NCBI GenBank assembly: GCA_025642075.2
Contig: JAODUO010001380.1
Span: 1-64,000, forward strand
DNA: 64,000 nucleotides
Origin: Ridgeia piscesae
Lineage: Eukaryota; Annelida; Polychaeta; Sabellida; Siboglinidae
Direction: 5' to 3'
In this document: piece after piece, positions 46,840 to 62,563 of the stretch
Layout of the letters: each line of letters begins with the position of its first letter
Position numbering within the stretch: position 1 is the stretch's first letter
Translations under genes and position numbers: made by a program
Notes under the pieces: generated by a model
What the model was told of the DNA's origin: nothing
The model's input: the letters and a program-made list of their open reading frames with translations, nothing else
Database searches by the model: none

Positions 46840-46914
46840 CTGGAGAAATCTATCACTTTGCGAGGGTAAAACATCACACGATATGATGGCCATGCAAGAT
46901 GAAATATTACTTAC

Positions 46915-47111
46915 GTTGTCGAATAGTGTACGCAAGACATTCCCCCAAGACTGGGAGCAGAAGCGGAATCTGTAGCCAGTTCAGGGAGAGAATTCATTTC
47001 TTCGGTTTCATCGATAAGTCCGATCGCATCTTCCAAACAGACGTCATCAACAACACCGGCGGGTGGAGAAGCAGAGTCGGTTGCCTCATCCTTCTTGCTT
47101 ACGTAACTCAT
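46915..47111 (-). CDS. Candidate first exon of an unidentified gene head-to-head with IFT46
   Basis: Starts at an ATG with A at -3 (TTAAAATGA). It encodes an acidic N-terminus, MSYVSKKDEATDSAS, then PPAGVVDDVCLEDAIGLIDE and LPELATDSASAPSLGG. As written, this frame leaves the exon at the GTAAGT donor in phase 2, which does not fit the next exon (phase 0). In the frame that fits, the end of this exon reads NVLRTLFDN. The change of frame would occur exactly at the run GGGGG (46942-46946 region). A missing G in the sequence, a polymorphism, or a different downstream exon could each explain this. The gene runs leftward, opposite to IFT46, with about 400 bp between the two ATGs. Confidence 0.5.
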
Positions 47112-47509: not shown

Positions 47510-47542
47510 ATGGACGAAGTGTCAGAAGAAGATCGCCAAAAA
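47510..47542 (+). CDS. IFT46: IFT46 exon 1, start of coding
   Basis: ATG at 47510 gives MDEVSEEDRQK and ends in phase 0 at the donor GTACGC. IFT46 is a core subunit of intraflagellar transport complex B, needed for cilium assembly. In Chlamydomonas its N-terminal region binds ODA16, the adaptor for outer dynein arms, while the conserved C-terminal part contacts IFT52 in the complex. The exon itself is too short for similarity; it is assigned because the next exons start in phase 0 and no other in-frame ATG precedes them. The frame upstream of the ATG is open for a short distance, so an earlier start is not excluded. Confidence 0.75.
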
Positions 47543-49702
47543 GTACGCGTTTTACATAGTGTATAGTTACTATCCATGTCCATGTTGTTACAAGTAATGT
47601 TACTGTGTTGATAAATCACGGATGTTTACAACTGGTGTAAATTGTTGTTGTGAAATTATATCTTGACGCGGTTGTCACAACAACGACGACGCCAAGACCC
47701 AAACCAGTGGCAGTGCAGTGGTCCTGTGGCCGTGTTCTAGTTGTTTCCAATACTCGGCTGGGTTCTATTAATTGACTAGTCTGTATCTATTTTGGTTACA
47801 ATGTTATCATCTGATGAGATCGTGTTGAAGTAGACAGTCTTTTTCGAGAATATTTACGCCAAGTCAATCTGTCTATATATGCATATACTATGGGCTATGG
47901 CTATGCTGACACTGACTGACTGAGAGTGACTCAGTGAGGCTGAACCTGAGGGGCCGACTTCGATTGAGCTACTCGAGTTACTCGCGTAACCCCAATGTGG
48001 TTTATGATAATTTACACTGAGCGCGCAGTACTACGCATGTAATCCAACTGAACAGCGATGATCGTGATAAAAAAAACTTATGTAAATAAATAAAATAAAG
48101 TAATCAGTTGTTTAGTGTGTAAATTGTGACGTTCATCTTCTTGGTCTTAAATTATAATTCATAGAATGTGGTGACTTTAATCCATATTTACATGATTGTG
48201 TCATGTAATGTTTAATTAATTTCTTGTGCAGTAGGGGCCTACGTACCCTATTGGTTGTCACTGCTAATGACGTCAATTACTCGAGTGAATCCTGTACAAC
48301 TTGCGATTGTCTCGAGTAGCGGTCTTGAAGACTCACCTTGCTAATCTAGGTCAAAAATGGTCACATGCTCGACTGTTTGATTGGGACTCTGGTTACGCGA
48401 GTTACTCGCGTAGCTCAGTCGAAGTCAGCCAGGGTGTTCACTGCCAGGGACCAGGCCCAATGCACTTGTCGTCCTCAGAACTCAGTTCTTCTTTTACATC
48501 CCAAATTGAGATAGGACCGGCATTAACATGATTCTCCAATTCACAAGTGATACACAGTCCCCCATGTTGAGAGCCTGGTTTTAACATCAAATATATGAGG
48601 CACACTAAAAGTCTTCTAGTCTTAGATAAGTTGAACATATCTTTAAATTCTGCCGTCATTTTAAAACATACCTTTATAACCTTGCCTATCCACCACAGCT
48701 CCCTGGCATAACAATCAATCTGATGACAAATTTTGACAACTGGAATTGTTAACTCAGTTAACTGTTTTAGATTGATGCGTCTCTGAGCTTGGTTTGTAAG
48801 GAATTAGACACTATAGACTTTACCTTATTATTATTATTATTATTTCAGAAAAGAATTGATACAGACAGGCTTATTTTAATGCACATATACATAAGACTAA
48901 GTCTTAATTGTAGCATGTTATCATTTGTCATATTTATTAATATGCATCTGTGTAATTACACAAAGTGTCAACACATATTTTGCTAGGTTATTCGTTATCA
49001 CTGTCGTGTATATAATGTTTTTTCTTGAAAATTGTAATAACTGAAGGTGCTGCCACTTAGCATACTGTTGATACATTATATTGTCATATTGTGTTGGGAA
49101 ATAACCCAATAACACTGACATATCCAAACATCGCTAACTGACTCTAACTGACAGGCAAATAGTTAAGTAAATATTTCTGTTTAATCAACTTGAGTACTGT
49201 GACATCAGCATAATACAGAATAACATTGAAAATGGGTCAATATAATGAGAGTTTGCCCTAGACATATGTAGTTTACTGGCTTACCTAACCATAAACATGC
49301 CAGGGGACATAAGATCTTACTAGGGACAGAATGCTTCATCAGAGGCTAGATCCATTGCTAATTTAACTTGCTGGCATTTCACAGAACGTTCATTTTGTTT
49401 TTAATTTCTGTTATAGCAGCGTCAGTGTATGGACTTACTGTAAAACTCATGTTGTGATTGGTTGGCATGGATCTCAATTATATGGTAGGTGATAAAATGG
49501 GTCTTGGAGCTGTTGCGTCAAGATAAACAAATTCTCTGGCTCTGTAAGCTAGGGGTCTTTGAGCATAATTTGCATTAGTTAATGGTGTAAAATAAAAATA
49601 TTATTTTGCAAAGTGCATATGTACACTAGGTCCTCACAATGTTTTGGGAATGTGCATGAGGACGTGTGTTGTAAACAGTTGTAGTGCATGTTGCATTTTC
49701 AG
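47543..49702 (+). other. IFT46 intron 1
   Basis: Holds the TIR element at 47952-48430 and a short TTA run at 48823-48845. Open frames here (48301-48531, 48438-48659, 48789-48986) lack support. Confidence 0.6.
47952..48430. mobile_element. MITE-like element with 40-bp terminal inverted repeats
   Basis: The left end GGCCGACTTCGATTGAGCTA, continuing CTCGAGTTACTCGCGTAACC, matches the reverse complement of the right end with 4 mismatches in 40 bp. The repeats contain CTCGAGTTACTCGCG-type near-palindromes, also present inside at about 48280-48320. Total length 479 bp with no coding capacity. No clear target-site duplication. It sits in intron 1 of IFT46. Confidence 0.8.
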
Positions 49703-49802
49703 GGCAGCCTCCATCAGAACCAACCCTATGACGAGTCCCTTGATGTTCCTGATGCTGAAAGTCAGTGTACTCCCTCTCCCAGGGTATTGAACCCCCTCAA
49801 AG
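49703..49802 (+). CDS. IFT46: IFT46 alternative exon 2a
   Basis: Exon of 100 nt, acceptor CATTTTCAG, donor GTACCA, entered in phase 0 and left in phase 1. It encodes GSLHQNQPYDESLDVPDAES and then QCTPSPRVLNPLK. The core NQPYDESLDV is repeated exactly in exons 2b and 2c and resembles the N-Q-P-H-D-E-E motif near the N-terminus of Chlamydomonas IFT46 (from memory). The tail differs from the other two versions. A second possible donor (CCCAGG/GTATTG) would leave in phase 0 and break the frame into exon 3, so I chose the donor at 49803. Confidence 0.85.
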
Positions 49803-51142
49803 GTACCAGGGTAGCGCTGCAAGCAGTTAGGGCATCGGTCAGCATGCCACCCACAAACTGCGGCCACCCCACCTCTGTCCTGCCTGCATACTGGACTCAC
49901 ATATGCCGCACATTTCATTCTGTTTTTGTTTATTTTGTGACCTCCGACCTCTTATGTTTCAGCTGTGTAAATGTGAATCAGAGTGAGGGTTAGGGAACAC
50001 CAGGGTCTGTTGTATGTGTATTCACATATACCGTAAATTCTCCATTTAAATCCCCACCTGTAATTAAAGCCTCACCCCAGCTTTTTACATAAACTCTGAC
50101 TTTTCTCGGCTGCACATAGACAAACAAAATCGCAAGTGAAGACATGCAGAATTTATGGAATATAATCACAATAAGAAGTTACTCTCCCTGTGAGCAGGAT
50201 ATACATGTCTCATTTGTACCATTTACTGTGTGACTAAACAGTGCTTGAATTAAGTTGTAATGAAAGAACAAGTTGTAGGACAATTGTTTTTTAAACACAG
50301 TATGAGCACCGCACAAAGACGAACATTTGAATTTCAACCCTTGTTGATATTGTTTTTATAAATTACAAGGCCCCCCATTCCCTACCCTCCAGTTGAAGGA
50401 TTGATTGATTTTGTGGCATTTGAATATATATACCGGTACTTCCTTCATCTTTCCTCTCAATCAAAGCCAACCTGAACTCTCCAACAGTGTTCATTTAGCA
50501 AAGTAAACACTATTTTCGAATGTCATATTTTTGTGCACATAGCTTGGCATTTAATCTGTGTAATTGTTTACCGAAAGAAAGACACTTGTTTTTGTTTTCC
50601 GTATATTTTGGCTGCATCTTGCAACCTTCAGTAGTGGACTGATTTTCATGTTGTGTCATGTAACCTGCATCATGTGGCCTGTAAAAAGACAAAAAGGAAA
50701 TGTTTACTGTGGAAAGTTTCAGGTTGGAAAATGTTTCCATTGACGATTCTGTTCATGCGAGACAGAATAGTTCCCGGGTCTTTATTTTAAAACTTTGATT
50801 GTCCTGGGGGAGCAAATCTTCGGTTGTTGACTCAACTCTCTCAGTTCATCACTATTTCAGTGATCTGAAATTTTATGTTGCTTGTTTAAAAAATTAATAT
50901 AAACAAAACTTGCAAAATTTAATTCAACTTAAAAGGTAGTGCATTTTGTGAATGTTGTAAGATGGAACTATACTTGTAAATACACACTGCTGCAGATTAG
51001 CCCCGGGAACTATACTTGTATATACACACTGCTGCAGATTAGCCCCACGGGGGAACTATACTTGTACATACACATTGCTGCAGATTAGCACGTGCTGGTT
51101 GCAGTTTGACAGGCACCTGGCACATTCACGTCTTTGTTGCAG
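49803..51142 (+). other. IFT46 intron between exons 2a and 2b
   Basis: Contains the three-copy repeat at 50963-51095 just before the exon 2b acceptor. The minus-strand open frame at 50510-50740 is unsupported. Confidence 0.6.
50963..51095. repeat. Three-copy repeat of about 45 bp next to the exon 2b acceptor
   Basis: Each copy contains GGAACTATACTTGTA and ACACTGCTGCAGATTAG. The pyrimidine-containing CTGCTGCAG could act as a weak acceptor. The array ends about 45 bp upstream of the true acceptor (51142). Confidence 0.85.
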
Positions 51143-51251
51143 GCCCGTGTTTACAATAACCAACCCTATGATGAGTCTTTAGACGTGGGTGACACAGAAG
51201 AGGTCGCTAGTTTATACACCCCCACCCCCCGGGTGCCCCGTCACACAGGAG
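51143..51251 (+). CDS. IFT46: IFT46 alternative exon 2b
   Basis: Exon of 109 nt, acceptor TTTGTTGCAG, donor GTAGAC, entered in phase 0 and left in phase 1. It encodes ARVYNNQPYDESLDVGDTEE and then VASLYTPTPRVPRHTG minus its last two bases. It shares the core with 2a and 2c, the V-A-S-L stretch with 2c, and T-P-(T/S)-P-R-V with 2a, so it is intermediate between them. The ten core codons differ from 2a only at synonymous positions (GAC/GAT, TCC/TCT, CTT/TTA, GAT/GAC, GTT/GTG), a sign of purifying selection on an old duplicate. Confidence 0.88.
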
Positions 51252-52083
51252 GTAGACCGTCATCAATAGTTTCCACCATCCTCTCGCTTCTCTGGGAATT
51301 TGGGTTTTCATACATGATGCAATCACCCTGTAGTGTTTTTGTCTAGACTTGACTTACATCACTTTGTGTCAAACTGCTGATTTATATTCTTATCAGGTGG
51401 TATGGGTTAATAGTTTAAGGTGGTATAAGTATTTATTTAGTGTCAGGTCAGATGGGGTACTAACAATAACATCAGGTGACATAAGGTATTAGTGTCTGGT
51501 GGTATGGGTTATTGGTGTTAGGTGGTATATGGTATTTATCTAGTGTCAATTGGTATGAGACCTGTACTGGCACCAAGCGGTATGGACTCACATTGGTTGT
51601 TTCAGTCAGCCATAGTGTAGAGCCTGCAGTAGTGTTACTGTTACTCACATCGTATGAACTTGTCTACGATGTGAGCACTATTTGGATAGTACAGCTATCC
51701 ACCTGTACACATACTTGTCCAGGTACTAACACTATACTTACGGAATCCCATTTGTTCTGGTGACTGACCAGTTTTTGTTCCACACATCCTGTGGTGTCAT
51801 TTTTCCGAGACATGTATCTCTAACTTTGACTGACGAACACATCTGTGACATGATTGGCTATTCCAGCCACACAGGTAAGCAGGTACGACATCGTGAGTAA
51901 CCATGATTGTTTACCATATCAACACGTGAACTCGGAAGACACGACCACCAGACGAAGATGTCCTGATCCGTTCAGCGGTCTGTTACACCGCGTCATTGCC
52001 AACTCTTCCCTCTTGACACTCAAGCTTGTCTTGTGTTGTGAGACACACTGGGGGCATGTTGGTTACTCGGCGTGTCGTTGCAG
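51252..52083 (+). other. IFT46 intron between exons 2b and 2c
   Basis: Contains degenerate GGTGGTATGGGTTA-like words (51400-51580). Nothing else recognised. Confidence 0.6.
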
Positions 52084-52225
52084 GCAACCAAGGTGTACCA
52101 TAACCAGCCATACGACGAGTCGCTAGACGTACCTGACTCAGAGGACGTGGCAAGTCTGTCTGCCTCGAGCCCTCCGCCGGATGCTGTTGTGTCTGCCCGG
52201 CCTGCGGACGCACGCAAGGCTGCAG
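52084..52225 (+). CDS. IFT46: IFT46 alternative exon 2c
   Basis: Exon of 142 nt, acceptor TCGTTGCAG, donor GTAGTG, entered in phase 0 and left in phase 1. It encodes ATKVYHNQPYDESLDVPDSE, then DVASLSASSPPPDAVVSARP and ADARKAA. It is the longest version, with an Ala/Pro-rich tail. The core codons differ from 2a at seven third positions, all synonymous. Joined to exon 3, the phase-1 G makes Asp (G+AC), as with 2a and 2b. Confidence 0.88.
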
Positions 52226-52747
52226 GTAGTGGTCACTTAGACATACTGGACACTCAGGGTCAAATAGGTTTCTTTGTGTCAGATATATCGCATTGCAAAA
52301 TGCAGATACATATTTTTTAAATGTCAATAAGACTTAAAATTGAAGAAAAAAATAGGCATAAAATATATACCCAGTAAATATATATAAAATAAAAAATATG
52401 ATTTCTCCATCGGCTGTGCATTTCATAATGTACAATGGCAATATGGAATATGTTGTTCACTGCTCCAAGATATGGTTATGTTGTAAGAAATTTACATCCC
52501 TTGGAGCAAATCTTTGTGAAACATAACGTTTCGACCCATCAGCTCTAGGTCTTGGTCACGAAACCTGAGCCCACACACATGACACCAGTATGTGACCAAA
52601 ACCTGTAGCTGATGTGTCATAATGTCGCATGTTTCACAAAGATGCTGCAGAGTAAATTTATTTCTTACAACATTATGTTCAATTGAATGTAGGAATTAAG
52701 TCTTTTGTGTAATTTTATTTGCAAATCAGTTGTTTCTAGTGGTAAAT

Positions 52748-53287
52748 ATGCAATGGTGACAGCAGACATAATTTTATATGCAATGGTGACAGCAGACATA
52801 ATTTTATATGCAATGGTGACAGCAGACATAATTTTATATGCAATGGTGACAGCAGACATAATTTTATATGCAATGGTGACAGCAGACATAATTTTATATG
52901 CAATGGTGACAGCAGACATAATTTTATATGCAATGGTGACAGCAGACATAATTTTATATGCAATGGTGACAGCAGACATAATTTTATATGCAATGGTGAC
53001 AGCAGACATAATTTTATATGCAATGGTGACAGCAGACATAATTTTATATGCAATGGTGACAGCAGACATAATTTTATATGCAATGGTGACAGCAGACATA
53101 ATTTTATATGCAATGGTGACAGCAGACATAATTTTATATGCAATGGTGACAGCAGACATAATTTTATATGCAATGATGACAGCAGACATAATTTTATATG
53201 CAATGGTGACAGCAGACATAATTTTATGTGCAATGGTGACAGCAGACATAATTTTATATGCAATGGTGACAGCAGATGTAACTTTAA
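52748..53287. repeat. 30-bp minisatellite, 18 nearly identical copies
   Basis: Copies of ATGCAATGGTGACAGCAGAC plus ATAATTTTAT. Only a few point changes are seen (for example GATGAC at about 53175 and GTGCAATG at 53228), so the array is very homogeneous and young. The period is a multiple of three; the resulting open frames on both strands (AMVTADIILY, KIMSAVTIAY, LCLLSPLHIK repeats) are by-products. Confidence 0.97.
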
Positions 53288-54479
53288 AGGAAGTCTGTAG
53301 TCAGTGTTTAGGTTGCAATTCACTGTTCTGTTTTCTAATTAAGTGCCATCTCAAAGCATTGAGGTTTGTTACTTAAACATTTATTTGGGTTTATGAGGAG
53401 GTTACCAGGTAGTTGAAGTTTTGTTCAGCCTAATTTATCAATGCTTTTTTATTTTCCAATCATATTTGATAAGACTACTGGCTTTGGCCACATAAAAGCA
53501 GTTTTGTGTTATGTCATTAATATGAGATGGTGAACGATATTTAGGTGTCTATGATAAATCTTTTACAGTGATGTTGAGTCTTCATCCATTAGATATGTGC
53601 ACTTTGGACCATGATAAATTGCACAGTTGGGATCAGCAGAGTTAAATGTGATTTGTTTTGTTTAATCAATGTAACAGTATCAAACATTAAAGTTTTGTGA
53701 TGGCACCTGATCAACTACACGTTAAACATACTTACGTATTTGTTGTTACAAAATTTGTACTTACAATTTGTACTTACCCTGATTTATATTTGAGTGTGAC
53801 ATCTGCAGATCTCACCAGACAGGCTGGGCTCACACTAACTATTAACCAACCATTTAACATATTATGAATTAGACCAAGCGGGGCAATTATAAGTTGGCAA
53901 AAACGAGCAATTGCTTTGCTAATTGACTACCGGGTATACAAAAATCTGACAGAGTGAGTCCAGGCAGATAGTTTGTTATTAGACCACCAGATGTCAGTGT
54001 GGTTCAACAAACGTTCTGAAGATGCACATGGAGCAGTCAAGATGGTTAATTACCTTTGTGTATAGTGTGCATAAGTAAATTGTGTTCAGTGTGTACCCAG
54101 TGTGTACAAGTGCGTGCATGCATGCATGTTTGACTTGAGACATACAGTTATGTCTAATTCATACATGTGTTTCATTTACAAGCACTGTTGTTTGAGAAAT
54201 AATACTGTCTTGTTAAAGGTGAATGGAACCAGTTTTAACAAAACATACTTATTATGGTTGTGACTAACCTAGATAATTAATTCTTTTTTTAAATCTGCTT
54301 TTTAAAGCCTAACAAGAGACTTCAAAATTTACTTTTGGCCCAAGTTTCTATACATTCCAACCTCGTATAGCAACATTTTGCTAGCTCTTGTAGTGTCTAT
54401 GCAGTCAGAATTATCACTGTGAGGTCAGTTGACAATGCTCTGTGACTTCTATGACTGACCTGAAGAAGTTACAATATTG

Positions 54480-54546
54480 CAACATTATCATTTCACCCAT
54501 GCCAAAGTCATTTTATTTACAATAAACTATGAATAAAATACTACAT

Positions 54547-54602
<56 letters not shown>

Positions 54603-54678
54603 GTAGTATTTTATAATCATAGTTTATTGTAAATAAAATGACTTTGGCATGGGATAGAATATTATGTTGTAATATATA

Positions 54679-54731
<53 letters not shown>

Positions 54732-54802
54732 TATATTTATTATCATAGTTTATTGTAAATAAAATGACTTTGGCATGGGTGAAATGATAATGTTGCAATA
54801 TT

Positions 54803-54845
<43 letters not shown>
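54480..54845. repeat. AT-rich palindrome with TA-repeat centres
   Basis: A segment with CCATGCCAAAGTCATTTTAT and TTACAATAAACTATGA (about 54496-54535) is followed by a long TA run, then its inverted copy (about 54605-54650), a second TA run, and a third copy in the same orientation as the second (about 54738-54795), then a third TA run. Copies one and two can form a long hairpin. Confidence 0.85.
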
Positions 54846-54848
<3 letters not shown>

Positions 54849-56500
54849 TTTTTGTTGAACAATGTCATGCTATTTTTATATGGGTTCCATTTACCTTTAA
54901 ATATGTTATTGTTTTGACTTATTAACATAACCATGTTATGTGACTGGTTTGTTGACATGTATTGTTTTAGTTTAAAGGAATTGAACTTGTACAATGGTTT
55001 TCATTGGTTAACTCATATAGAACTAGTTGACAGTTTTGCATAATATTTTGCCAAATACCCTATTTCTTGATTTCATATTTAATTTCGAAGACAATAAAAT
55101 GATAAACAGATTAATCAGCTAAGTAAGATTCTAACTCAGCAATGAATTGTGTTTTAATGGAAAAGTATATTAGTGTGAACAATCAGAAAATGGTCAACCA
55201 GTAAAAATCATGGTACATTCCCTGTTATTTACTCAACTTGTGTGACATGACTTGTTTTTCTCTGCGGAGTGAAGGTTTCGATAAATTAAAACATGGTTTA
55301 AATATATTTTCAAAAAATTGAACTGCTGTGGAGTTATGTATTATTTTTTAGTAGTGTGTATTTAAATATTTTTATTTTACATATTCTCATGGAAACTAGC
55401 TGTACATTTTGTCACATTTTGACCTCTCCCGGTGTGTACCAACAATGTGCCATGTCACACAGTGATAAATACCGTTTGATTCACCAGCTGTTTTCTTGTT
55501 ACTGGGCAGCTATATATATCATGGTTTTGGTTTGTACTTGCCATGTACCAGTGCAGCTGTGTCTGCTTAATAAAAGGCAGTTATTTATGTTGACTTTCTG
55601 TGAAATCATAACCATTTGTTATGTTGCTGCCATGCTCCAATTCACAATTCAGCAAAGGTCGAGCTAAATGTTGAACTGTTGAATGAAGGAGTAATTGCTC
55701 ACTGAAGGTGTTTGTAAAACGGTACATTGAATAATTATGCAAACCAATATTGTAATGTCTGTTTTGTGGTGTTTGTGACATACTAAACATTCTGATGTGT
55801 TTAAAAAGGTTGTGTCTGTCTGCTTGGAAAGCCAGTAAACTTTGGGGATTGACCAGTTTATAAAAAAGCCCATACATTTGTGTGTATTTGTTAATATGGG
55901 AACTTATTACAGGTGTAAAATAGTACAAGATTGATGTTCAACATTCCCTTACTTTAAGCTTTGTTTTCCATCAAAATTGGCCACGTATGTCAGGATTAAT
56001 ATAGAAATAGGTTATCAGTGTTGGGATTAAAGGCAGCAGTCAGTATTGACATAATCCAGTAGATTGGTTTCTAGCTTCCTCTCCATCTTTCACCTGTCCC
56101 ACCAACTTGACTCTGTTTTCATTTTATTTATACAACCTTGTTTCGTTTTCACTTTGTATCACTTTGCAAGTGCATGTGGATTGCACTGAAGAACACTGCA
56201 ACCCAGATAAACTAATTTAAGTTGCACACTAATTATCACCATTCTGCCTTGTATATGTATGATGTCAGTTTAAAATATGTTGCTAAATCTTATTTAGTTT
56301 ACATATGTAATTGCAGTGTATCATGTAATCTTCACATGAAATCTTCTTACATCTGTATCTGTTTATTAATTTAAATTTTACTTGACATGGATGTAATAAA
56401 AACAATTGTAGCCAATCTTACCTATTAAACATGTTATGCGTATTTAAAATAGAAACATAATTTTGAGTGCAATTTTTAAATAATGCTTTTTGACTGACAG

Positions 56501-56700
56501 ACCCGAGGCGGAGCCGAGGCAATACTCCCCCCGACTCAAGAATGTCCAACCAATCGGATGATGAGTTTGAGACAGGAGATGCTGGGGGTCCCAGTGGTGG
56601 GGGTGGTCCTGGGGAAATGAGCGCCCCAGGAGGGGTCAGTGGCCCCAGAGGACTGGGCGCCCCAGCAGGGTTAGATGGTGGACAGATACCCCCAGGCAAG
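56501..56700 (+). CDS. IFT46: IFT46 exon 3
   Basis: Exon of 200 nt, acceptor TGACTGACAG, donor GTAAGG. Entered in phase 1 (AC completes Asp), left in phase 0. It encodes PRRSRGNTPPDSRMSNQSDD, EFETGDAGGPSGGGG and a Gly/Pro-rich stretch ending ...GQIPPGK. The phase fits each of the three exon 2 versions and does not fit exon 1 directly. The region is low-complexity and probably disordered. The internal Met (M-S-N-Q-S) could start a shorter product similar to the vertebrate protein, which lacks the NQPYDE part. Confidence 0.85.
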
Positions 56701-57253: not shown

Positions 57254-57378
57254 AAACATCCGAGTCAACCCACAAAGTTATATGCAAATGATGATGAAGA
57301 TGAAGATGCATCAGATTCCTCAGATGAAGATGATGAAGATGATGATGACGATGATGATAACGCCCAAACTGTTGAAGG
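57254..57378 (+). CDS. IFT46: IFT46 exon 4, acidic stretch
   Basis: Exon of 125 nt, phase 0 in, phase 2 out, acceptor CAACTCTAG, donor GTAAGT. It encodes KHPSQPTKLYANDDEDEDAS, then a run of Asp, Glu and Ser, and ends DNAQTVEG with the Gly codon split. Vertebrate IFT46 has a comparable acidic run followed by LEG-AYDPADYEHLP, so the boundary is at the expected place. The last bases, CTGTTGAAGG, and the following donor are the founding unit of the 47-bp array that fills the next intron. Confidence 0.9.
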
Positions 57379-60300
57379 GTAAGTGAGTGTCGAGGTGGAG
57401 TGCTGTTGTTGTCTACTGTTGGAGGGTAAGTGAGTGTCGAGGTGGAGTGCTGTTGTTGTCTACTGTTGGAGGGTAAGTGAGTGTCGAGGTGGAGTGCTGT
57501 TGTTTGCTGTTGGAGGGTGAGTGTTGAGGTGGAGTGCTGTTGGAGGGTGAGTGTTGAGGTGGAGTGCTGTTGGAGGGTGAGTGTTGAGGTGGAGTGCTTT
57601 TTTGTCTGCTGTTGGAGGATAAGTGAGTGTCGAGGTGGAGTGCTTTTGTTGTCTGCTGTTGGAGGATAAGTGAGTGTCGAGGTGGAGTCTGTTGGAGGGT
57701 GAGTGTCGAGGTGGAGTGTTGTTGTTGTCGGCTGTTGGAGGGTAAGTGAGTGTCGAGGTGGAGTGTTGTTGTTGTCTGCTGTTGGAGGGTAAGTGAGTGT
57801 CGAGGTGGAGTCTGTTGGAGGGTGAGTGTCGAGGTGGAGTGTTGTTGTTGTCGGCTGTTGGAGGGTAAGTGAGTGTCGAGGTGGAGTGTTGTTGTTATCT
57901 GCTGTTGGAGGATAAGTGAGTGTCGAGGTGGAGTCTGTTGGAGGGTGAGTGTCGAGGTGGAGTGTTGTTGTTGTCGGCTGTTGGAGGGTAAGTGAGTGTC
58001 GAGGTGGAGTGTTGTTGTTGTCTGCTGTTGGAGGGTAAGTGAGTGTCGAGGTGGAGTGCTGTTGTTGTCTGCTGTTGGAGGGTGAATGAGTGTTGAGGTG
58101 GAGTGCTGTTGTTGTCTGCTGTTGGAGGATAAGTGAGTGTCGAGGTGGAGTGCTGTTGTTATCTGCTGTTGGAGGATAAGTGAGTGTCGAGGTGGAGTGC
58201 TGTTGTTGTCTGCTGTTGGAGGGTGAATGAGTGTTGAGGTGGAGTGCTGTTGTTGTCTGCTGTTGGAGGATAAGTGAGTGTCGAGGTGGAGTGCTGTTGT
58301 TGTCGGCTGTTGGAGGGTGAATGAGTGTTGAGGTGGAGTGCTGTTGTTGTCTGCTGTTGGAGGGTGAATGAGTGTTGAGGTGGAGTGCTGTTGTTGTCTG
58401 CTGTTGGAGGATAAGTGAGTGTCGAGGTGGAGTGCTGTTGTTGTCGGCTGTTGGAGGATAAGTGAGTGTCAAGGTGGAGTGCTGTTGTTATCTGCTGTTG
58501 GAGGATAAGTGAGTGTCGAGGTGGAGTGCTGTTGTTATCTGCTGTTGGAGGGTAAGTGAGTGTCGAGGTGGAGTGCTGTTGTTATCTGCTGTTGGAGGGT
58601 AAGTGAATGTCAAGGTGGAGTGCTGTTGTTGTCTCCTGTTGGAGGGTAAGTGAGTGTTGAAGTGGAGTGCTGTTGTTGTCTGCTGTTGGAGGATAAGTGA
58701 GTGTTGAGGTGGAGTGCTGTTGGAGGGTGAGTGTCGAGGTGGAGTGCTGTTGTCTGCTGTTGGAGGGTAAGTGAGTGTCAAGGTGGAGTGCTGTTGTTGT
58801 CGGCTGTTGGAGGGTAAGTGAGTGTCGAGGTGGAGTGCTGTTGTTGTCGGCTGTTGGAGGGTAAGTGAGTGTCGAGGTGGAGTGCTGTTGTTGTCTGCTG
58901 TTGGAGGGTAAGTGAGTGTCGAGGTGGAGTGTTGTTGTTGTCTGCTGTTGGAGGATAAGTGAGTGTCGAGGTGGAGTGCTGTTGTTGTCTGCTGTTGGAG
59001 GGTAAGTGAGTGTCGAGGTGGAGTGCTGTTGTTGTCTGCTGTTGGAGGTAAGTGAGTGTCGAGGTGGAGTGCTGTTGTTGTCTGCTGTTGGAGGATAAGT
59101 GAGTGTCGAGGTGGAGTGCTGTTGTTGTCTGCTGTTGGAGGATAAGTGAGTGTCGAGGTGGAGTGCTGTTGTTGTCTGCTGTTGGAGGATAAGTGAGTGT
59201 CGAGGTGGAGTGCTGTTGTTGTCTGCTGTTGGAGGATAAGTGAGTGTCGAGGTGGAGTGCTGTTGTTGTCTGCTGTTGGAGGGTAAGTGAGTGTCGAGGT
59301 GGAGTGCTGTTGTTGTCGGCTGTTGGAGGGTAAGTGAGTGTCGAGGTGGAGTGCTGTTGTTGTCTGCTGTTGGAGGGTAAGTGAGTGTCAAGGTGGAGTG
59401 CTGTTGGAGGGTGAGTGTCGAGGTGGAGGGTGAGTGTCGAGGTGGAGTGCTGTTGTTGTCTGCTGTTGGAGGGTAAGTGGGTGTCAAGGTGGAGTGCTGT
59501 TGTTGTCGGCTGTTGAAGGGTAAGTGAGTGTCGAGGTGGAGTGCTGTTGTTGTCTGCTGTTGGAGGGTGAATGAGTGTTGAGGTGGAGTGCTGTTGTTGT
59601 CTGCTGTTGGAGGGTGAATGAGTGTTGAGGTGGAGTGCTGTTGTTGTCTGCTGTTGAAGGGTGAGTGAGTGTCGAGGTGGAGTGCTGTTGTTGTCTGCTG
59701 TTGGAGGGTAAGTGAGTGTTGAGGTGGAGTGCTGTTGTTGTCTGCTATTGATTGGAGGGTGAATGGGTGTTGAGGTGGAGTGCTGTTGTTGTCTGCTGTT
59801 GAAGGGTAAGTGAGTGTCGAGGTGGAGTGCTGTTGTTGTCTGCTGTTGGAGGGTGAATGAGTGTTGAGGTGGAGTGCTGTTGTTGTCTGCTGTTGGAGGG
59901 TAAGTGAGTGTCGAGGTGGAGTGCTGTTGTTGTCTGCTGTTGGAGGGTAAGTGAGTGTCGAGGTGGAGTGCTGTTGTTGTCTGCTGTTGGAGGGTAAGTG
60001 AGTGTCGAGGTGGAGTGCTGTTGTTGTCTGCTGTTGGAGGGTAAGTGAGTGTCGAGGTGGAGTGCTGTTGTTGTCTGCTGTTGGAGGGTGAATGGGTGTT
60101 GAGGTGGAGTGCTGTTGTTGTCTGCTGTTGGAGGGTGAATGTGTTGTTGTCGGTGGATGTGGGTGTGTGTTGTCTGCTGTTGAAGGGTAAGTGAGTGTCG
60201 AGGTGGAGTGCTGTTGTTGTCTGCTGTTGGAGGGTAAGTGAGTGTTGAGGTGGAGTGCTGTTGTTGTCTGCTGTTGGAGGGTAAGTGAGTGTCGAGGTGG

Positions 60301-62045
60301 AGTGCTGTTGTTGTCTGCTGTTGGAGGGTAGAGTGAGTGTCGAGGTGGAGTGCTGTTGTTGTCTGCTGTTGGAGGGTAAGTGAGTGTCGAGGTGGAGTGC
60401 TGTTGTTGTCTGCTGTTGGAGGGTAAGTGAGTGTCGAGGTGGAGTGCTGTTGTTGTCTGCTGTTGAAGGGTAAGTGAGTGTCGAGGTGGAGTGCTGTTGT
60501 TGTCTGCTGTTGAAGGGTAAGTGAGTGTCGAGGTGGAGTGCTGTTGTTGTCTGCTTTTGATTGGAGGGTGAATGGGTGTCGAGGTGGAGTGCTGTTGTTG
60601 TCTGCTGTTGAAGGGTAAGTGAGTGTCGAGGTGGAGTGCTGTTGTCTGCTGTTGGAGGGTAAGTGGGTGTCGAGGTGGAGTGCTGTTGTTGTCTGCTGTT
60701 GAGGGTAAGTGAGTGTCGAGGTGGAGTGCTGTTGTTGTCTGCTGTTGGAGGGTAAGTGAGTGTCGAGGTGGAGTGCTGTTGTTGTCTGCTGTTGGAGGGT
60801 AAGTGGGTGTCGAGGTGGAGTGCTGTTGTTGTCTGCTGTTGGAGGGTAAGTGAGTGTCGAGGTGGAGTGCTGTTGTTGTCTGCTGTTGAAGGGTAAGTGA
60901 GTGTCGAGGTGGAGTGCTGTTGTTGTCGCTGTTGGAAGGGTAAGTGAGTGTCGAGGTGGAGTGCTGTTGTTGTCTGCTGTTGGAGGGTAAGTGAGTGTCG
61001 AGGTGGAGTGCTGTTGTTGTCTGCTGTTGGAGGGTAAGTGAGTGTCGAGGTGGAGTGCTGTTGTTGTCTGCTGTTGAAGGGTAAGTGAGTGTCGAGGTGG
61101 AGTGCTGTTGTTGTCTGCTGTTGGAGGGTAATGAGTGTCGAGGTGGAGTGCTGTTGTTGTCTGCTGTTGGAGGGTAAGTGAGTGTGAGGTGGAGTGCTGT
61201 TGTTGTCTGCTGTTGGAGGGTAAGTGAGTGTCGAGGTGGAGTGCTGTTGTTGTCTGCTGTTGGAGGGTAAGTGGTGTCGAGGTGGAGTGCTGTTGTTGTC
61301 TGCTGTTGGAGGGTAAGTGAGTGTCGAGGTGGAGAGCTGTTGTTGTCTGCTGTTGGAGGGTAAGTGGTGTGAGGTGGAGTGCTGTTGTTGTCTGCTGTTG
61401 GAGGGTAAGTGAGTGTCGAGGTGGAGTGCTGTTGTTGTCTGCTGTTGAAGGGTAAGTGAGTGTTGAGGTGGAGTGCTGTTGTTGTCTGCTGTTGGAGGGT
61501 GAGAGGCATTTTTGGTGTTGGAGGGAGGAGTGTTGATCTGTTTCTGCTGTTGAAAGGGTAACGTGAGTGTCGAGGTGGAGTGCTGTTGTTGTCTGCTGTT
61601 GGAGGGTGAATGAGTGTTGAGGTGGAGTGCTGTTGTTGTCTGCTGTTGGAGGGTAAGTGAGTGTCGAGGTGGAGTGCTGTTGTTGTCTGCTGTTGGAGGG
61701 TAATGAGTGTGAGGTGGAGTGCTGTTGTTGTCTGCTGTTGGAGGGTAAATGGGTGTTGAGGTGGAGTGCTGTTGTTGTCTGCTGTTGAAGGGTAAGTGAG
61801 TGTCGAGGTGGAGTGCTGTTGTTGTCTGCTGTTGGAGGGTGAATGAGTGTTGAGGTGGAGTGCTGTTGTTGTCTGCTGTTGAAGGGTAAGTGAGTGTTGA
61901 GGTGGAGTGCTGTTGTTGTCTGCTGTTGAAGGGTAAGTGAGTGTCGAGGTGGAGTGCTGTTGTTGTCTGCTGTTGAAGGGTAAGTGAGTGTCGAGGTGGA
62001 GTGCTGTTGTTGTCTGCTGTTGGAGGGTGAGTGGGTGTCAAGGAG
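57369..62045 (+). repeat. 47-bp minisatellite copying the IFT46 exon 4 donor, about 100 copies
   Basis: The array starts inside exon 4 and runs for about 4.7 kb. Each unit contains the exon end CTGTTGGAGG (or CTGTTGAAGG, identical to the real exon) followed by the donor GTAAGTGAGTGTCGAGGTGG. Some units have GTGAGTG or GATAAGTGAG in place of the consensus donor, and shorter units of about 30 bp lie at 57500-57600. Mixed higher-order patterns suggest unequal exchange or gene-conversion-like events. An irregular interruption at 61501-61560 and a rearranged unit near 60135-60175 stand out. The reverse strand has no stop codon in any frame over most of the array; the resulting open frames (up to about 1,090 codons, rich in Thr, Pro, Gln, Asn, Ser and His) are not called as genes. 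Confidence 0.97.
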
Positions 62046-62488
62046 GAGGCACCTCTTCTTTTTAAATTGAAGAAAAAATTGCAATTTCTGCAGCTATTGT
62101 CTAGCCATGTTAGTGCCTGAATACAGACAACGTTACAGACAATGATATTGTAACTTATATTACCGGTAGTTGTTCATATTTGTGGATTTATTAAGTTCAC
62201 CTTACATTACCTTTTGAAAATTTTGTGAAATTGTTGATGAAAATGATTACCATCTCCCTACAGTAAACAGTTATGGCTTGTTTATCGGCACACTTTGGTT
62301 CCAAGGGTTTGGTCGATTAAAAAAATTGTAGATTAGCGAGACACCCTATTATACATGGTACCAAGATGATTCCCACACAGTAAGTGTGGATCACAAACAA
62401 CTGAATTTTTGAAAATTGATAAACGAAACATAATTAGCATTGTACTTCAGGCAAACATTTTATATGTAGAGGTGATTTTTATTTTCAG

Positions 62489-62563
62489 AGCCTATGATCC
62501 TGCGGAGTATGAGCACTTACCTGCAAGTACAGAGATCAAAGAACTCTTCCAGTACATTACCAG
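62489..62563 (+). CDS. IFT46: IFT46 exon 5, start of the conserved core
   Basis: Exon of 75 nt, acceptor ATTTTCAG, donor GTAAGT, phase 2 in and phase 2 out. With the split Gly it reads G-AYDPAEYEHLPASTEIKELF and QYITR (Arg codon split). Vertebrate IFT46 has AYDPADYEHLPVSAEIKELF followed by QYISR, so the match is almost complete and identifies the gene. The following exons (expected to begin Y-T-P-Q) lie beyond the window. The donor is duplicated 25 bp downstream (CCAGGTAAGTG at 62585-62595). Confidence 0.97.

Follow-up and report, generated by a model that had tools for sequence, protein, structure and literature searches.

Results

The IFT46 gene and its three copies of exon 2

The window (the whole stretch of 64,000 nucleotides of Ridgeia piscesae DNA that was analysed) contains the first part of a gene, the remainder of which was read from the 30 kb of contig that follow the window (Table 1). 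The complete gene has 12 exons per message, and its frame is open with exon 2a, 2b or 2c, giving proteins of 392, 395 and 406 aa, respectively. The gene carrying the three exon 2 copies is IFT46, as an earlier note on this DNA had named it: the full-length 2b form matches PF12317 (IFT46_B_C) with 334.6 bits, against a cut-off of 22.2, and with the 2c form as query the top full-length relative among the matches listed comes from the nemertean Lineus (IFT46, 59% identity, E 9.5e-147). When the part within the window was taken by itself, the three forms scored 20.7, 20.7 and 20.6 bits, under the PF12317 cut-off, and it had no PDB match up to E 0.001. The window held 0 tRNA genes. An open frame starting MSYVSKKDEATDSASPP lies on the minus strand at about 46900-47111, ~400 bp ahead of where IFT46 translation starts, and is probably a head-to-head gene.

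Table 1. Features of the IFT46 locus. Positions are those of the window except where the contig is named.
Feature	Position	Strand	Remarks
IFT46 exon 1, coding part	47510..47542	+	MDEVSEEDRQK; ends in phase 0
Exon 2a	49703..49802	+	GSLHQNQPYDESLDVPDAESQCTPSPRVLNPLK; core and TPSPR kept, without EVAS; profile 43.0 bits
Three tandem copies, ~42 nt	50964..51089	+	2a-2b intron; CTGCAG in each
Exon 2b	51143..51251	+	ARVYNNQPYDESLDVGDTEEVASLYTPTPRVPRHTG; form nearest to other bilaterians; profile 65.7 bits
Exon 2c	52084..52225	+	ATKVYHNQPYDESLDVPDSEDVASLSASSPPP and Ala/Pro-rich tail; without YTPTPR; profile 46.3 bits
Exon 3	56501..56700	+	entered in phase 1
Exon 4, acidic linker	57254..57378	+	
Exon 5, IFT46 C-terminal domain begins	62489..62563	+	
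Exons 6-12	contig 64043-68203, beyond window		stop ends at contig position 68203

Published criteria for mutually exclusive exons concern length (a difference of up to 20 aa), compatible splice sites and frame, homology, a neighbouring position with exons flanking the cluster, and the inclusion of exactly one copy per transcript (PMC3228551). The three copies of exon 2 are 100, 109 and 142 nt long, each 1 modulo 3, and hold 33, 36 and 47 whole codons. Each has an AG acceptor and a GT donor, is entered in phase 0 and left in phase 1, and sits between exon 1 and exon 3. A ten-residue core beginning NQPYDE is identical in 2a, 2b and 2c, and all three match the IFT46 profile. The coordinates, lengths and phases given in the earlier note hold. 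The eight possible combinations of the copies were translated, and only the three single-exon forms stay open; a message with no exon 2, with 2a+2b, 2a+2c, 2b+2c or with all three meets stops. This confirms the rule that one copy keeps the frame and that none, two or three destroy it.

The profile was made from 150 IFT46 N-termini. From a starting set of 172 proteins, 152 matched a motif expression within their first 120 residues, while 20 did not, some of these being without the N-terminus or having a variant; P0001 and one row starting too near the motif were not used. Because N and Q were fixed in the expression and the choice of letters at the remaining core columns was restricted, the invariance of the core is partly by construction; at core positions 5 and 6, however, where more than one letter was allowed, D and E occur in 150 of 150. 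A search of 94 kb on both strands with this profile found the three exon 2 places, with the next best place at 7.1 bits, and no fourth copy. A DNA pattern for the core, which leaves out some codon choices, matched the 628-Mb genome three times forward, always at this cluster, and 0 times in reverse; the control, the pattern read backwards, gave 1 match.

Age and constraint of the copies

Within the ten core codons, 2a and 2b differ at 6 nucleotides, 2a and 2c at 7, and 2b and 2c at 7, with 0 amino-acid differences. When substitutions were placed at random in the core, the outcome was all-synonymous in 8 of 200,000 trials for 2a to 2b (6 changes) and in 1 of 200,000 for 2b to 2c (7 changes); the 2a to 2c simulation, which used 6 changes against the real 7, gave 16 of 200,000. 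The core had been chosen for its conservation, so this test is post hoc; the comparison of pS and pN is less so. As uncorrected proportions over the alignable codons, pS and pN were 0.93 and 0.096 for 2b-2c (22 codons), 0.89 and 0.196 for 2a-2b (17 codons) and 1.14 and 0.099 for 2a-2c (17 codons), and these values cover the alignable parts, since the tails beyond cannot be aligned. Synonymous sites are saturated and protein changes few, indicating that the copies of exon 2 are old and constrained. The core counts and the pS/pN values agree on the claim that the core codons differ only synonymously and that all three copies are constrained. Differences that saturate the synonymous sites speak against an assembly artefact, and this reading was rejected.

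Splicing signals and introns

G at +5 is found at 0 of the 3 exon 2 donors and at 9 of the 10 remaining IFT46 donors (p 0.014 in a post hoc Fisher test). A donor matrix gave a marginal contrast for the exon 2 donors (p 0.056), and one other IFT46 donor scored below any of the three. Some known exclusive clusters have intron pairing, whereas here, for six intron pairs with 20 shuffles each, no base-pairing that would enforce the choice rose above the shuffled maximum; the last intron entered this test without its repeats at 52701-53289 and 54501-54899. The tandem copies in the 2a-2b intron are possible decoy acceptors, judged by their sequence. Other repeats lie further along the gene. At 52746-53276, in the intron 3' of exon 2c, a 30-nt unit is repeated 17.7 times with 99% matching. 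From the end of exon 4 onwards runs a minisatellite of ~4.7 kb with a unit of ~47 nt (57369-62048), in which the exon 4 donor recurs; with 51 exact copies of GGTAAGTGAG at 57379-62050, it presents a long series of strong decoy 5' splice sites.

Relatives of the exon 2 copies

The top match of the first protein search, among the best 120 of 331, was P0001, a 146-aa gene model of Lamellibrachia satsuma, a siboglinid annelid (E 1.1e-35). It begins MDEVSDEDRHK, close to exon 1 of the worm, and continues with a 2c-type exon, sharing with 2c the loss of YTPTPR. In a tree of exon 2 peptides, built on 33 columns and with few resolved forks, 2c and P0001 group at 100/99 and this group joins 2b at 96/74; the 2a branch is long and poorly placed. 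The other readable IFT46 proteins have one exon 2 peptide, of the 2b type, in clusters of 90% identity that could hide isoforms. This peptide carries NQPYDESLEV, EEVAS and [ST]P[ST]PR and so resembles that of the worm; one version is present per listed protein, however, against three in the worm gene. The third protein search also returned P0174, a two-sequence cluster that is the window's own 2a reading frame, and P0182, the frame of exon 3 in a close relative. The single reading frames P0185, P0187, P0189 and P0192 suggest the same exon boundaries as in the worm gene. No full-length siboglinid IFT46 was present among 120 listed of 1414 matches, and a search of the genome contig and viral contig collections for DNA of relatives gave 0 matches. 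Among gastropod proteins, P0024 and P0050 of Pomacea and P0042 and P0064 of two Haliotis species vary in an additional segment directly after the exon 2 peptide, suggestive of a cassette exon at this position.

The predicted ODA16-docking peptide

The N-terminus of IFT46 has reportedly been studied by Hou and Witman in 2017. According to a published study, the Chlamydomonas IFT46 peptide 23-44 binds ODA16 with a Kd of 1.0 uM, contact is made through 29-Nxxx(D/E)E-34 and the D33K change abolishes binding; the motif is conserved in Xenopus laevis IFT46, and no direct binding was reported for the human IFT46-ODA16 pair (PMC11879689). The X. laevis motif (P0104) reads NQPYDES. In Chlamydomonas chain 8bd7_D, QNQPHDEE at residues 28-35 aligns with the worm core, and NQPYDE of 2a, 2b and 2c fits Nxxx(D/E)E near the N-terminus, aligned with Chlamydomonas 29-34. 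By this alignment, Chlamydomonas 23-44 corresponds to worm residues 11-32, that is, the last residue of exon 1 followed by exon 2; the alignment of the N-termini is weak (5.8 bits, i-Evalue 59) and is carried by position and motif. Each exon 2 version is thus predicted to encode nearly the whole ODA16-docking peptide. The link to ODA16 comes out stronger than the earlier note had claimed, since the alignment places almost the entire mapped binding peptide within exon 2. The Chlamydomonas protein shares the motif near its N-terminus with all three worm exons, but its solved chain has one docking peptide, whereas the worm would have three to select from.

Among mammalian IFT46 proteins (P0166, P0152, P0164, P0012, P0027, P0034, P0041), some carry an ODA16-type motif upstream of MADNSSDE, a stretch that we take to be the start of the usual human IFT46 protein. 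The motif reads NQTYDE in pika isoform X1, Prionailurus and one further sequence, and NQPYDE in platypus and marsupials. The published account gives the motif as absent from human, mouse and cattle IFT46 though the human ODA16 cleft is conserved (PMC11879689), and a longer mammalian isoform may explain this reported absence. In the worm, an internal Met of exon 3 opens the stretch MSNQSDDE, which lines up with vertebrate MADNSSDE; a loose expression for an internal Met followed by such an acidic Ser-rich stretch matches 112 of 158 IFT46 proteins. Because the two stretches align, a short form of IFT46 without the docking peptide may be old.

Differences between 2a, 2b and 2c after the core

In the 150 profiled proteins the consensus after the core is xDxEEVASxY[ST]P[ST]PR. 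Exon 2b has all of it (EEVASLYTPTPR, with T before EEV), keeping both EEVAS and YTPTPR. Exon 2a is three residues shorter by alignment and reads AESQCTPSPR. Exon 2c keeps EDVAS, and in place of YTPTPR it has SASSPPP and an Ala/Pro-rich tail. From these differences we infer that 2a would shorten the stretch that completes the beta-sheet of ODA16 in the Chlamydomonas model, and that 2c would remove a possible proline-directed phosphorylation site. Since all three copies have the same core, it is unlikely that ODA16 binding is switched on and off through it, and docking is not expected to be simply present or absent.

Discussion

We propose, with a probability of about 0.6, that the three copies are mutually exclusive versions of IFT46 exon 2 that would supply three ODA16/DAW1 docking peptides. 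Mutually exclusive use as such, judged by the architecture, is highly probable. It is suggested by frame arithmetic, as one copy keeps the message open, and the rarity of look-alikes points the same way: of 16,180 non-exclusive exons on the X chromosome of Drosophila, 90 share length, frame and similarity with a neighbour (PMC3228551), so that clusters of this appearance are usually truly exclusive. Splicing would place a single copy, 2a, 2b or 2c, between exons 1 and 3, whereas including none or more than one would shift the frame and lead to an early stop. A cell would then fit its IFT trains with one of three docking peptides, alike in the binding core but unlike in what comes after it (EVAS gone in 2a) and in the Ser/Thr-Pro module (YTPTPR gone in 2c). 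The versions would be expected to differ in the strength or release of docking, not in its plain presence.

Mutually exclusive exons are already known as a kind. The clusters of muscle myosin heavy chain (PMC3912159) and NALCN (PMC3557258) are likewise reported to have neighbouring homologous internal exons with the same phases, similar length and one open choice per message. The IFT46 cluster differs from them in that it would supply a protein of the ciliary trains with a short docking peptide, and in that its exclusive use is proposed from the DNA. The earlier note knew of no report of such a cluster in IFT46, and our search of open-licence full texts likewise found none; an oyster paper names IFT46 as more highly expressed, separately from its exclusive-exon counts (PMC6611504).

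Other explanations were weighed. The cell might use one version, most likely 2b, which is nearest other bilaterians, with the other two being relics of old duplications. The loss from 2a and 2c of parts conserved in other animals would fit this, but relics old enough for their synonymous sites to be saturated should carry stops or broken splice sites, whereas sites and frames are intact and protein changes are few in every pair; a 2c-type exon is moreover present in the L. satsuma gene model. We consider this explanation unlikely. Still less should be expected of alternative first exons with their own promoters, in place of internal exclusive exons. An in-frame ATG at 49688 (49688-49702), five codons upstream of the 2a acceptor, would allow such a start for 2a, but for 2b and 2c the stretch from the preceding stop up to the exon holds no in-frame ATG, acceptors are present at all three copies and in the L. 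satsuma model exon 1 is spliced to the 2c-type exon; on this evidence first exons are very improbable. Messages with none or two of the copies might instead often be made and then destroyed, so that splicing would set the level of IFT46 and not its peptide. Every wrong combination does give early stops, and in a study of orthologous genes with validated exclusive exons, 20 of 28 had incompatible frames leading to decay if both exons were included (PMC5740500). Such a brake would leave the kept core and different tails of three versions unexplained, however, where one would do, and we rate it as quite unlikely.

A further explanation accepts an exclusive cluster but lets the choice act through another partner, or through phosphorylation of the YTPTPR module, and not through ODA16. 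The core for ODA16 is identical in the three versions, and the differences fall in EEVAS and YTPTPR, two elements that show strong conservation across the 150 proteins of the profile; we know of no function assigned to either. Against this, the Chlamydomonas peptide reaches residue 44, which is aligned into EEV, so that 2a at least should touch the ODA16 interface. We regard action through another partner as possible but doubtful.

Our preferred reading, three exclusive docking peptides for ODA16/DAW1, leads to a further and more tentative proposal, that of a cargo code set by splicing. Here 2a might alter the strength of docking and 2c might lose Ser/Thr-Pro control, with different types of cilium or life stages loading or releasing dynein arms differently. 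The choice between motile and sensory cilia that the earlier note suggested is speculative. The cluster bears on how IFT trains choose their cargo: one gene of this worm offers three natural versions, kept by long selection, of the peptide predicted to couple trains to dynein arms, and these variants could be used directly to learn what the residues flanking the core do. If the reading is true, splicing controls ciliary cargo loading.
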